Shown piece by piece: positions 4,883 to 9,382 of a stretch of DNA of 64,000 bases. The translations under genes and the position numbers were made by a program. Below the pieces are notes generated by a model, which saw only the letters and a program-made list of their open reading frames with translations, was not told the DNA's origin and made no database searches. The stretch comes from Acinetobacter indicus CIP 110367 (lineage in GTDB: Bacteria > Pseudomonadota > Gammaproteobacteria > Pseudomonadales > Moraxellaceae), in contig NZ_KI530754.1 of NCBI RefSeq assembly GCF_000488255.1, positions 62,001 to 126,000 of the forward strand. Direction: 5' to 3'. Within the stretch, counting starts at the first letter, position 1. The number at the start of each line of letters is the position of its first letter.

Positions 4883-5791
4883 ATGCCGTATTATGTCATG
4901 CCCGATGGCGAAGGTTTATTTGTACGTGAATTTGGTCAGGGCCAACCGGTGCTGGTGCTGTCCGGTTTGGGCATGCACAGCTGGCAATGGCTGCCGTTTT
5001 TGTGGCCGCTACGCAAACAGTTCCGTTTTATTATTCCCGACTGGCGCGGCTTTGGCGGTTCGAAACAGTGCCGGATTCCGGAGCTGGATGCCATTTCCAG
5101 CCACTGGCAGGATGTGCAATCCTTAATTCAGCAAATGCAGCTGCAACAGTTTATAATCATTGCCTATTCGATGGGCGCGACCACCGCCATGCATGGCATG
5201 CAATATGGACAGCTGGCAACGCAGTTAAAAGCCTATCTGCATATTGATCAGACCCCAAAAATCCTGGTAGATGAACACTGGGCTTATGGCCTGTTTGGTC
5301 AGCAGCACAGCCACTTTAAACAGATTTTATCTGAACTGTCCGCGCTATTTACGGAACACGCACATCTTCAGTGGATTCACGATTTAAATAACACAGCCAA
5401 AGATCAACTGTTTGCTTTATGGATGCAGTTTATTGAGCTGCAAAATAACAACCCTCGCCAGCGAGCCATCTTTTGTAAAATCCTGCAACAGCCACGTTTG
5501 CAACATCTGCTGTTACCCTCATCTCGACTGGACTATATGACTTGGTATATCCGCAACTATTTAGAACATGCCGAAGATTATCGTGAAGCCTTAAGCCAGC
5601 TGAACTGTCCTACGGTGTTTTTTAGCGGGGTGCAATCGGTGCTCTATCCGGTACAGGGACAAACCCTGATTGCCCAAAGTGTGGCACAGGCACAGCAGGT
5701 GTTGTTTGAAAAATCAGGGCATACTCCGCTACTGACTGAGCCGCTGAAATTTACCCGCGAACTTAAACGCTTTTTATTGCAGCATCAGTAA
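4883..5791 (+). CDS. Alpha/beta hydrolase
   Basis: The 302-residue protein has a classic alpha/beta hydrolase core: oxyanion-loop region VLVLSGLGMHSWQW, a DWRGFGGS turn, nucleophile elbow AYSMGA and a C-terminal histidine in KSGHTPLL. It is probably a cytoplasmic esterase or lipase-like enzyme of unknown substrate. AAGGAATGAAATCTC precedes the ATG. It starts 21 bases after the PadR-type gene, so the two are likely one transcript, placing it in the same regulon as fadH. Confidence 0.8.
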   Translation: MPYYVMPDGEGLFVREFGQGQPVLVLSGLGMHSWQWLPFLWPLRKQFRFIIPDWRGFGGSKQCRIPELDAISSHWQDVQSLIQQMQLQQFIIIAYSMGATTAMHGMQYGQLATQLKAYLHIDQTPKILVDEHWAYGLFGQQHSHFKQILSELSALFTEHAHLQWIHDLNNTAKDQLFALWMQFIELQNNNPRQRAIFCKILQQPRLQHLLLPSSRLDYMTWYIRNYLEHAEDYREALSQLNCPTVFFSGVQSVLYPVQGQTLIAQSVAQAQQVLFEKSGHTPLLTEPLKFTRELKRFLLQHQ

Positions 5792-5884: not shown

Positions 5885-6193
5885 CTAGGCAATTTTCCCA
5901 TCAATAATGCCCTGCTGTTTTAAAGCCTGCAGTTCTTCAGCAGATTTAAAGCGGGACAGAATATAGGCCGTATGTTCACCCAGTTGCGGTGGTGCCTGCC
6001 GGTATTCGACCGGTGTATCTGACAGCTTGATCGGTGATGCAATCATTTTAAATTGCGCATTTAAACTGTGCGGCAAATTTACCAGCATCTGCCGATGCTG
6101 AATTTGCGGCTCAGCCAAGGCATCTTCAATCGAGTTAATTACACCGACCGGTACTTTGACCGCATGAATCCGGCGTACCCATTCCTCTACATT
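5885..6193 (-). pseudogene. gcdG: C-terminal remnant of glutarate CoA-transferase
   Basis: Only about 100 codons remain. [20 protein letters not shown] followed by the region ending PPQLGEHTAYIL is the C-terminal end of the CaiB/BaiF family of CoA-transferases, which are normally about 400 residues. The N-terminal ~300 residues, including the catalytic aspartate region, are absent. The remnant starts at the stop codon of gcdH, in another frame, with no start codon or ribosome site of its own. In the gcdR-gcdHG arrangement known from Pseudomonas, GcdG moves CoA onto glutarate. Position and orientation match that arrangement exactly, so this is read as an internal deletion. Confidence 0.82.
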
Positions 6194-7415
6194 AATTACA
6201 AAATGCAGCAATTCCGGTCTGTGCTCGGCCCAGAATTAAGGCATGTACGTCATGCGTGCCTTCATAGGTATTCACCACTTCCAGATTCACCAGATGACGC
6301 GCTACACCAAACTCATCCGAAATGCCGTTACCACCCATCATGTCACGAGCCAAACGGGCAATATCCAGTGCCTTGCCACAGTTATTGCGCTTGATTAAAG
6401 ATGTTCCTTCAATCGAGGCAATACCTTCATCTTTCATGCGGCCAAAACGTAATGCGGCCTGTAAACCTAAGGCAATTTCAGTTTGCATATCGGCCAGTTT
6501 TTTCTGGATTAACTGATTGGCAGCCAAAGGACGACCAAACTGTTTACGGTCCATGGTGTACTGATGTGCGGTATGCCAGCAGAACTCCGCCGCACCCATC
6601 GCACCCCAGGCAATGCCGTAACGGGCACTGTTCAGACAGGTAAATGGACCTTTTAAGCCACGAACTTCCGGGAAAGCATTTTCTTCTGGGACAAATACGT
6701 TATCCATCACAATTTCACCGGTGATGGAAGCACGTAAACCGACCTTACCGTGAATCGCCGGGGCAGACAGCCCTTCCCAGCCTTTTTCCAGAATAAAGCC
6801 GCGAATGTCACCGACATTGCCTTCAGGTGAAACCTCTTTGGCCCAAACCACAAAGACATCGGCAATTGGACTGTTGGTAATCCACATTTTTGCGCCTGTT
6901 AAACGATAACCGCCATCGACTTTTTTGGCACGGGTAATCATGCTGCCCGGGTCAGAACCATGATCCGGTTCGGTCAGACCAAAGCAGCCAATATATTCAC
7001 CCGTAGCTAATTTTGGTAAATACTTCTGTTTTTGTTCTTCCGAGCCAAATTCATTAATCGGTACCATCACCAGCGAACTTTGTACACTGGCCATAGAACG
7101 GTAACCTGAATCGACGCGTTCGACTTCACGGGCAATCAGACCATAGCTGACATAATTTAAACCGGCACCGCCGTATTGCTCAGGAATGGTCGGGCCCAGC
7201 AAACCGAGCTCGCCCATTTCACGGAAAATGGTCGGATCGGTTTTTTCATGACGGAACTGTTCTAATACACGTGGCATCAGCTTGTCTTGACAATAGGCCG
7301 CAGCAGTATCACGGATCATGCGTTCTTCTGCAGTCAGCTGCTGCTCCAGCAGGAATGGGTCTTGCCAGTCAAAATGTACTTTACGGCCTGAATGTGAATT
7401 TACCATTTGATTCAT
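6192..7415 (-). CDS. gcdH: Glutaryl-CoA dehydrogenase
   Basis: The 407-residue protein has the full acyl-CoA dehydrogenase fold: N-terminal helical domain, middle domain with [17 protein letters not shown] and [10 protein letters not shown] for FAD and substrate, and a C-terminal domain with the catalytic glutamate in [17 protein letters not shown]. It oxidises and decarboxylates glutaryl-CoA to crotonyl-CoA in lysine, tryptophan and glutarate breakdown. The start at 7415 is used because GAGGAAGCT lies directly upstream; a longer frame to 7520 has no such site. The last residues (AAFCN) run into the deletion junction with gcdG. It is divergent from the LysR regulator. Confidence 0.92.
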
Positions 7416-7662
7416 AGCTTCCTCTGCCTGAATGATGTTCTCGTTGTTTGTGTTGATACTATGTGTGAAAAATAATATTTTCAAACGAGATTTTTTAATG
7501 CAGATATGCATTCTCCGCATATCTTAAATAAGCGTATTTATACTGGAGCGGCGCATCATGCTAAAACCCGTGAAGAAACAATAAAAAATAACCAAATTGG
7601 CGATCATAGCGCCTTCATCTATGCTATTTTCAAATACCTGTGCAGATAAAGGATGATCTGAA

Positions 7663-8622
7663 ATGCGGCGTAATATTCCCTCTTTACAGGCCTTTCTCTG
7701 CTTTGAGTCGGCAGCCAAACATTGCAGTTATACCCATGCCTCGCAAGAGCTGTTTATTACCCAGAGTGCGGTTTCCCGGCAAATCCAGCAGCTGGAAGAA
7801 TTTCTTAGCTTAAGCCTGTTTATCCGGACCCGGCATGGGGTCGAGCTGACGCCTGCAGGACAGCATTATTATAAAAGTATCAAACCCTATTTACTGGGGC
7901 TGGAGCAAAGCACGCTCGATGTGATGTCGCATAAAGGATTAGGCGGCACCTTAAAGCTGGGCGTAGTACCGACCTTTGCCACGCGCTGGCTAGTGCCGAA
8001 GCTGCACCGTTTTAACCAGCGCTATCCGGAAATTACTATTCATTTGGAAACCAGCACCAAACCGTTTTTATTTAATGAAAATATTTTTGATGCGGCCATT
8101 TATGCCGGTACGCAGCAGCAGATTGATCATTGGCCCGGAATCCACACCCATTTTTTAATGAAGGAAGATGTGGTGCCAGTGTGCTCACCGCAGCTGATTG
8201 CCCGGCATTTTCCTGCGGCACAAAAAAGCCATCGCTATGGTTATAACCTGGCTGCCGAACAATTACAGCAACTGCCTTTATTACAGCAAACCACACGACC
8301 GACCATCTGGCAGGAATGGTTCCAGACCCAGCAGATTGAGCATGCCCATCCGTATGATGGACAGCGTCATGAACTGTTTTCGATGCTGGCTGTGGCCGCC
8401 AGTCATGGCATGGGCATGGCACTCATCCCGCAAATGTTGATTCAGCAGGAATTAACCAGCGGTGAACTGGTACTGGCCTCAGATCAGCAGCTCAGCGGCC
8501 GGCGCTCCTATTATCTGGTACATTCCAGTCAGGAAAATTCAGTTTTAATTCAGAAATTTGTAGAATGGATGCAACAGGAAGTCACGCACAGTATCGCCAC
8601 ACAGGAATCTGCCTATGCCTAA
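7663..8622 (+). CDS. gcdR: LysR-family regulator, probably GcdR
   Basis: The 319-residue protein has an N-terminal LysR helix-turn-helix (LQAFLCFESAAKHCSYTHASQ, then ITQSAVSRQIQQLEEFL) and a GcvA-like ligand domain from about residue 95 (LKLGVVPTFATRWLVPKL). It is divergent from gcdH across a 247-base gap, as in Pseudomonas gcdR-gcdHG, where the regulator activates the operon in response to glutarate. AAGGATGATCTGAA precedes the ATG. Its last eight bases overlap the start of the sirtuin gene. LysR assignment is certain; the GcdR name rests on context. Confidence 0.85.
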   Translation: MRRNIPSLQAFLCFESAAKHCSYTHASQELFITQSAVSRQIQQLEEFLSLSLFIRTRHGVELTPAGQHYYKSIKPYLLGLEQSTLDVMSHKGLGGTLKLGVVPTFATRWLVPKLHRFNQRYPEITIHLETSTKPFLFNENIFDAAIYAGTQQQIDHWPGIHTHFLMKEDVVPVCSPQLIARHFPAAQKSHRYGYNLAAEQLQQLPLLQQTTRPTIWQEWFQTQQIEHAHPYDGQRHELFSMLAVAASHGMGMALIPQMLIQQELTSGELVLASDQQLSGRRSYYLVHSSQENSVLIQKFVEWMQQEVTHSIATQESAYA

Positions 8623-9319
8623 ACTGATTGTTTTCTCCGGTGCCGGAATGAGCGCCGAAAGCGGGATCAATACCTTCCGTGATAGTGATGGATTGTGGGA
8701 ACAGCATCGGGTGGAAGATGTGGCCACGCCGGAAGCCTGGGCCAAAAATCCGGCGCTGGTGCAGCGTTTTTATAATGAACGGCGCAAAAATATTCTGAAT
8801 GCCCAGCCCAACGCGGCACATCAATTGATTGCCGAACTGGAACAGTATTTTGATGTGGCTGTTATTACCCAGAATATTGATGATCTGCATGAACGTGCCG
8901 GTAGCCAGCAGGTATTACATTTGCATGGCAATATCCGGCTGGCTAAAACCTCCGGTCCCGATGCACAAACCACTACCCGCTTTTACCCGATTGAAGGTGC
9001 CGAGCTGGATTTGGAACGTGATGTCTGTGATGCGGGTTATCCGCTACGGCCACACGTGGTCTGGTTTGGTGAAGCGGTACCGGCGTATGCACAAGCGATT
9101 GAATGGGTGCAGGATGCCGACATTTTTATTGTGATTGGCAGCAGTCTGGCGGTCTACCCGGTGGCCGGTCTGGTTCATGAAATTCCGGCCAGCTGTCAGG
9201 CCTTTTATATTGATCCGAAAGCCAATCAGCAGCATTTACCAGCACAATATGAATGTATTGCCGCCACTGCAACCCAAGGTTTGGCACAGTTAAAGCCGCG
9301 GCTGCTGGCGGCCCTGTAA
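8615..9319 (+). CDS. cobB: SIRT5/CobB-type NAD-dependent protein deacylase
   Basis: The 234-residue sirtuin has the NAD-binding GAGMSAESGI (residues 9-18), TQNIDDLHERAG and catalytic His104 in HLHG. Tyr53 and Arg56 form the Y-x-x-R pair of class III sirtuins, which hold acidic acyl groups such as succinyl- or glutaryl-lysine. The zinc-ribbon region is odd: between HLHG and RPHVVWFGE only one cysteine remains, so the usual four-cysteine zinc site is missing. AGGAA lies seven bases before the ATG and the gene overlaps gcdR by eight bases, so the two are co-transcribed. It would remove lysine acyl marks in the cytoplasm. Confidence 0.9.
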   Translation: MPKLIVFSGAGMSAESGINTFRDSDGLWEQHRVEDVATPEAWAKNPALVQRFYNERRKNILNAQPNAAHQLIAELEQYFDVAVITQNIDDLHERAGSQQVLHLHGNIRLAKTSGPDAQTTTRFYPIEGAELDLERDVCDAGYPLRPHVVWFGEAVPAYAQAIEWVQDADIFIVIGSSLAVYPVAGLVHEIPASCQAFYIDPKANQQHLPAQYECIAATATQGLAQLKPRLLAAL

Positions 9320-9347: not shown

Positions 9348-9382
9348 AAAGGCTCAAAACCAATATATGACCTTGAGCCTTT
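9348..9382. terminator. Bidirectional terminator between cobB and aspA
   Basis: AAAGGCTCAA (9348-9357) pairs perfectly with TTGAGCCTTT (9373-9382) across a 15-base loop. The A/T ends allow it to serve both convergent genes. Confidence 0.8.

Follow-up and report, generated by a model that had tools for sequence, protein, structure and literature searches.

The locus described here raises the question of why the only sirtuin gene of an Acinetobacter-type genome should overlap the gene for a GcdR-type regulator, next to the gene for glutaryl-CoA dehydrogenase (gcdH). It lies in a window of 64,000 nucleotides, by which we mean the whole stretch of DNA that was analysed, within a genome of 3.2 Mb. 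A preliminary description had pointed to a sirtuin with the residues Tyr53 and Arg56 that overlaps gcdR by 8 bases and adjoins gcdH, all of which is confirmed by the open reading frames and alignments, and had suggested a small module that controls glutaryl damage to proteins. In mice, SIRT5 is reported to deglutarylate GCDH and so to restore its activity (PMC8969154), which favors a bacterial form of the SIRT5-GCDH loop in which the sirtuin would remove glutaryl groups from proteins, GcdH above all, while gcdR would couple its production to glutarate. Alternatively, catabolic blocks may come and go upstream of the sirtuin with no special link to glutaryl-CoA, or the enzyme may be a general deacylase whose gene has repeatedly joined catabolic operons. 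The evidence that bears on these readings is given below.

Organization of the locus

The sirtuin gene (8615..9319, + strand) encodes a protein of 234 residues that is predicted, from its match to Pfam PF02146, alignments and a structural model, to be a class III (SIRT5/CobB-like) NAD-dependent lysine deacylase. The gcdR gene (7663..8622, + strand), which encodes a LysR regulator of 319 residues assigned by profile matches, shares bases 8615-8622 with it, and the sequence AGGA lies 8 bases 5' of the sirtuin ATG. The overlap is ordinary operon anatomy and no statistical anomaly. A terminator-like hairpin (9348..9382) lies 28 bases past the sirtuin stop, where the sirtuin and aspA genes converge; it matches the consensus on the - strand only, and 4 such sites were found in the scanned region compared with 2.5 expected. 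A promoter scan of the region gave 2 matches where 3.2 were expected, which is not above chance, and the match count of a T-N11-A scan was likewise at chance level.

The gcdH gene (6192..7520, - strand) is divergent from gcdR, and the proteins that it matches best are glutaryl-CoA dehydrogenases of solved structure, 3gnc (E 1.4e-217) and the human enzyme 1siq (E 4.1e-167). Its open reading frame from the first ATG has 442 codons for amino acids, and since homology to the solved enzymes begins near residue 49, the true start probably lies inside it. The divergent arrangement is kept beyond the genus, where GcdR relatives in two loci (L242 and L243) also stand divergent from gcdH, with GcdHs that are 82-85% identical to that of the window, and the gcdR name is thus supported by synteny. 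The weakest out-of-genus GcdR match (37%; L244, a doubtful match in G226) has no gcdH beside it. By analogy with Pseudomonas putida, where GcdR is reported to activate gcdH with glutarate as the effector (PMC6667623), the intergenic region (7521..7662) is expected to be a shared divergent control region. The P. putida gcdR-gcdH-gcoT locus resembles that of the window in having a LysR regulator adjoining gcdH, but in the window gcdR is followed by a sirtuin gene and the CoA-transferase gene is truncated, and the word "sirtuin" is absent from the main text of PMC6667623.

This truncated gene, an open reading frame of 108 residues that abuts the gcdH stop (5885..6211, - strand), is a remnant of a glutarate (family III) CoA-transferase. 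It matches about the last 100 residues (about 314-415 of 415) at 76% identity, so only the C-terminal quarter is left in the window; intact copies are present in related genomes. A search of the window's own genome for another close copy found none, the next best matches being 35% and 32% identical. The glutarate-activating step that relatives encode beside gcdH is therefore broken here, which argues against a dedicated glutaryl function of the sirtuin, although another CoA-transferase might carry it out.

A predicted class III sirtuin without the zinc cysteines

A search of the 3.2 Mb genome with PF02146 finds this protein alone, which scores 157 bits (cut-off 24). The motifs that define Sir2 proteins are GAGxSxESGIxxFR, TQNxDxLH and the catalytic HG, and the catalytic and NAD motifs are near-invariant both in 66 sequences of the genus, where a single row departs at each of positions 9, 12, 17 and 106 (three of eight extra genus loci, L033, L037 and L039, are outside this alignment), and in a 51-sequence alignment drawn from 81 sequences. 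SIRT5 carries a four-cysteine zinc site. Human and zebrafish SIRT5 share with the window sirtuin class III membership and a Tyr-x-x-Arg acidic-acyl pocket, the pair being named as contacting acidic acyl groups in SIRT5 and PA1125 (PMC10652111), but they are about 30-32% identical to it, and deglutarylase activity is only conjectured for the window protein. All 66 genus sequences, and 8 others aligned with them, carry Tyr53 and Arg56, which are also invariant in the 51-sequence alignment. By motif search, as distinct from aligned positions, Tyr-x-x-Arg occurs in 80 of 80 loci in the set of best-listed relatives and in 40 of 41 rows of a second set that includes Escherichia coli CobB, the exception being L238. 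The pair that had been offered as evidence of a SIRT5-type enzyme is therefore truly there, but it is widespread in class III, being carried by nearly every sequence examined, and we reject it as a mark of deglutarylation. Bacterial class III sirtuins are described as tending to be broad ("undifferentiated zymograph"), with some differentiation (PMC10652111), and succinyl-lysine is reported to be partly hydrolysed by CobB in vitro (PMC11164685).

An AlphaFold2 model of the sirtuin has a mean pLDDT of 94.9, with block means of 94-97 across the zinc-module region. Its best fold match is E. coli CobB (TM 0.85-0.89), which also ranks first among solved proteins by sequence (E 2.1e-49) and has the Tyr-x-x-Arg pair, followed by archaeal Sir2 and SIRT5, and the glutarylated-peptide complex 4utr is among the matches (TMq 0.76). 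The two proteins nevertheless differ, in that CobB has four zinc-module cysteines and the window sirtuin one, cobB lies beside nagK rather than behind gcdR, and the window protein scores 195.8 bits against the CobB equivalog NF040867, below its cut-off of 320 bits.

The structural zinc of sirtuins is held by four cysteines (PMC8556138). This site is absent from the window sirtuin, whose module contains a single cysteine (Cys138), so that it is a member of the Pfam family without being of the canonical zinc type. None of the 66 aligned Acinetobacter sequences has the four-cysteine site; Cys138 is kept in 64 of them and a second cysteine in few. Within the lost module, Cys138 (window 9026-9028) is nearly invariant, being present in at least 90% of the 51 sequences. 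Four or five zinc-module cysteines are found in E. coli CobB, in all 20 of the sirtuins fetched from other Moraxellaceae, and in 17 of 17 sequences of the same order (L221-L237), and the zinc-less trait recurs in two more from that order (L239 and L240). Loss of the site could impair or alter sirtuin catalysis.

Origin of the zinc-less sirtuin

Among the matches listed, the closest sirtuins are 49-58% identical and nearly all from Bacteroidota (Crocinitomicaceae, Pedobacter and others), the listed relatives from elsewhere including four from Halomonas, Kushneria and Modicisalibacter. They lack the same cysteines and share the nearly invariant Cys138: the zinc module has 0-2 cysteines in all 65 scorable non-Acinetobacter loci among the matches listed (it was unscorable in 7 of 80 relative loci and in L238). 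In a first sirtuin tree, from which L238 was omitted, the 29 rows from Acinetobacter (21 genus loci picked by hand and eight named ones) form one clade (support 100, starred) inside zinc-less, mostly Bacteroidota sirtuins, the eight named loci sharing that clade with the window sirtuin. When the zinc module was removed (69 hand-picked rows), the Acinetobacter clade was still recovered (99, starred) and the zinc-less sequences formed one side of the tree (90, unstarred). All trees were built by a quick method, and the direction of transfer depends on sampling and rooting. From these sequence comparisons, the zinc-less trait is that of an old branch, with transfer into Acinetobacter as the simplest reading. 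Most likely Acinetobacter obtained its sirtuin from Bacteroidota, a direction that we infer from the listed relatives, beyond which nearer ones may exist. In the literature searched, we found no description of a zinc-less sirtuin of Acinetobacter or Bacteroidota, which is no proof of its absence in print; loss of the zinc site is reported as a prediction for some acetic acid bacteria (PMC11820453). We regard the zinc-less lineage as a more solid new point than the glutaryl link.

The Bacteroidota loci differ from the window in their surroundings. A GcdR homologue was sought in the 72 listed non-Acinetobacter sirtuin loci and none was found, and five of the 72 (L147, L148, L150, L152 and L194) encode a GcdH homologue, 51-53% identical, some 1.5-1.65 kb downstream from the sirtuin gene. 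All five fall, together with the Acinetobacter clade, in a 36-row fork (support 89), which speaks for a link between sirtuin and gcdH. The other two non-Acinetobacter rows of this fork are L154, whose available 6.5 kb lacks gcdH, and L153, where the sequence ends just past the sirtuin. However, two opposite-strand genes separate sirtuin from gcdH, of which the first encodes HemD (L148) or a homologue and the second, in the four loci where it was tested, a DUF4271 protein, so the Bacteroidota pair is no operon, and the proximity, though suggestive, looks like one shared ancestral gene order. Joint transfer of gcdH and the sirtuin from Bacteroidota is unsupported, as the window GcdH is 82-85% identical to the out-of-genus GcdHs beside gcdR, compared with 51-53% to those of Bacteroidota.

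Distribution of the gcdR-sirtuin pair

The sample comprised 99 Acinetobacter genomes, the window's own included, and was searched at cut-offs that we chose ourselves (E 1e-60 for GcdR, 1e-55 in a wider search of the class, and E 1e-150 for gcdH). The zinc-less type of sirtuin was found in 62 genomes, namely the window's own, 59 others with a full gene (69-80% identity) and two with a broken one (G054 and G092). In these two (L120 and L119, respectively) the sirtuin is split into two frames, and gcdH and gcdR are both kept. Only a distant Sir2 (27-32% identity) was found in 16 genomes and no match in 21; the zinc-less sirtuin and the distant Sir2 never occur together, as if mutually replacing. 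The gcdR gene is present in 47 and gcdH in 69 of the 99 genomes. Two gcdH matches each were obtained in G002, G018, G042, G060, G081, G085 and G087, one of them beside gcdR in six; G002 lacks gcdR at the E 1e-60 cut-off.

The gcdR gene occurs in 41 of the 62 sirtuin genomes and adjoins the sirtuin, on the same strand, in 11 of them, with a spacing of -8 to 45 bases in ten and 123 in one; in G036 some 8.5 kb separate the two genes. Beyond Acinetobacter, searches recovered gcdR from 11 of 193 further genomes of the order and from two more of the class (one of them a doubtful match, in G226), and none of the 12 sirtuin-bearing genomes among these 13 has the sirtuin near gcdR. Adjacency is therefore recurrent in Acinetobacter but facultative, and a conserved gcdR-sirtuin module is rejected by the 51 of 62 sirtuin genomes that are without it. 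The preliminary description had regarded restriction to a few close relatives as telling against the idea; among the genomes examined the pair is indeed limited to a single genus, but within that genus it occurs in several lineages. For a dedicated deglutarylase these numbers are unfavorable, as are the 6 of 62 sirtuin genomes without gcdH at E 1e-150 and the 13 gcdH genomes without the zinc-less sirtuin.

Adjacency and co-occurrence corrected for ancestry

An rpoB tree was built for 96 of the 99 genomes, including 10 of the 11 with adjacency (G001 and G025 gave no match, and G030, which is 65% complete, was dropped). On this tree gcdR-sirtuin adjacency needs at least four changes, and the well supported branches alone force four. 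That partner, order and orientation stay the same over at least four changes is a point against mere hitch-hiking and in favor of a glutaryl function. A single clade of the 11 adjacent GcdRs is rejected (AU p 0.004; 31 rows, consisting of fetched gcdR loci only, of 47), and thus a single inherited adjacency is rejected for GcdR, while the same test does not reject one clade of the 11 adjacent sirtuins (p 0.065; trees without the broken genes of G054 and G092). The association of gcdR with the sirtuin goes beyond mere inheritance of one arrangement.

By plain genome counts, 56 genomes have both the sirtuin and gcdH, 6 the sirtuin only, 13 gcdH only and 24 neither (Fisher p 1e-8). Since species are not independent, these counts were recast as independent pairs, giving 12 pairs with an average split of 7.1 concordant, 0.3 discordant and 4.6 without a difference (median p 0.016, range 0.004-0.29 over pairings). 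The reverse pairing gave 13 pairs, with 6.3 for and 0.2 against (median p 0.031). The corresponding test for the sirtuin and gcdR was not significant (7.8 vs 1.6, median p 0.07), nor did either control show the effect, with 1.3 vs 3.6 for urocanase (p 0.63) and 2.3 vs 2.1 for genome size (p 1). Urocanase is rarer in sirtuin genomes by plain counts (18/62 vs 19/37, Fisher p 0.03), which the pairs do not uphold. Co-variation of the sirtuin with gcdH beyond ancestry thus has moderate support, from about seven informative pairs and two controls; it extends past adjacency, and it argues for a glutaryl function and against hitch-hiking.

Other genomic contexts

Upstream contexts of the sirtuin were assigned by hand in 61 genomes, with G054 left out. 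The neighbor is an alpha/beta hydrolase in 20, gcdR in 11, gcvH in 9, an MFS metabolite transporter in 7 (with a small open reading frame between in one), pcaIJFD in 6 and other genes in 8. The sirtuin follows pcaIJFD, which belongs to the pathway of 3-oxoadipyl-CoA, an acidic acyl-CoA, in L093, L095, L102, L107, L112 and L061, the last with an opposite-strand gene between. It lies about 100 bases after gcvH, for the lipoyl carrier, in L083, L089, L097, L103, L105, L106, L108, L111 and L116. Mapped on the rpoB tree, the contexts of 59 genomes require at least 17 changes, and pcaD plays the same role in another group as the gcd block does here, both of which are consistent with hitch-hiking. 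So is the position of the window's gcd block, which sits exactly between the sirtuin and the hydrolase gene (4883..5791, + strand) that is its commonest upstream neighbor in Acinetobacter without an intervening gcd block; we considered that the block was either inserted between the two or deleted from an ancestral order. In the sister species G029 and G088 (100, starred, on rpoB), G088 has gcdH itself beside the sirtuin, with no gcdR there, which favors a glutaryl link, and G029 has the hydrolase followed by the sirtuin and no gcdH.

Proposed role of the sirtuin

Taking these lines together, we consider it reasonably probable that the protein is a general deacylase, of broad or acid-acyl range, which came from Bacteroidota and has repeatedly joined catabolic operons, that of gcdR among them. 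We favor this reading over a dedicated deglutarylase, which seems unlikely to us, and over pure hitch-hiking, which we rate slightly lower again. The idea of a glutaryl damage-control module retains in its favor the four or more changes, the adjacent GcdRs that are not monophyletic and the co-variation with gcdH, but loses by the facultative adjacency, the unspecific motif and the sirtuin genomes without gcdH. The step from P. putida GcdR and mouse SIRT5-GCDH to the window would in any case be one of analogy. A fuller version, also doubtful in our estimation, would have a zinc-independent class III sirtuin pass from Bacteroidota to Acinetobacter and be drawn more than once into operons for glutaryl-CoA, where glutarate would induce it and its deglutarylase activity would keep GcdH working; gene order, and not compartment, would then give bacteria their own form of the mammalian SIRT5-GCDH loop. 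That the zinc-less protein is no longer a deacylase and has another NAD-dependent action, such as ADP-ribosylation or lipoyl removal, would fit the absence of the four-cysteine site from every member of the clade that was scored, the gcvH neighbor in nine genomes and the additional annotation of E. coli CobB as a lipoamidase, but is highly improbable, given that the catalytic and acyl-pocket residues are kept and the fold is unchanged in the model.

In the broad-deacylase mechanism that we propose, the cell's sole sirtuin would be a class III NAD-dependent lysine deacylase with an acidic-acyl pocket formed by Tyr53 and Arg56, and its range is probably broad, covering acetyl, succinyl, glutaryl and similar groups. 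Judging by the model, its small module would fold without structural zinc. The gene appears to move between operons, usually as the downstream gene, and in the window it probably shares both a transcript and translational coupling with gcdR, so that the level of the sirtuin may follow gcdR regulation. Its most likely task is the removal of acyl marks that arise from reactive acyl-CoAs, including glutaryl-CoA when the pathway runs, and it would be retained more often where gcdH is present.

If the link to glutaryl-CoA holds, bacteria would offer a simple genetic test of whether protein damage by reactive acyl-CoAs needs repair by a sirtuin, which is the question posed by SIRT5 and GCDH in animals. 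The sister species G029 and G088, which differ in gcdH beside the sirtuin, form a natural comparison for this. A branch of sirtuins that is without the site for structural zinc but keeps its catalytic residues poses, in addition, the question of what purpose the zinc serves.
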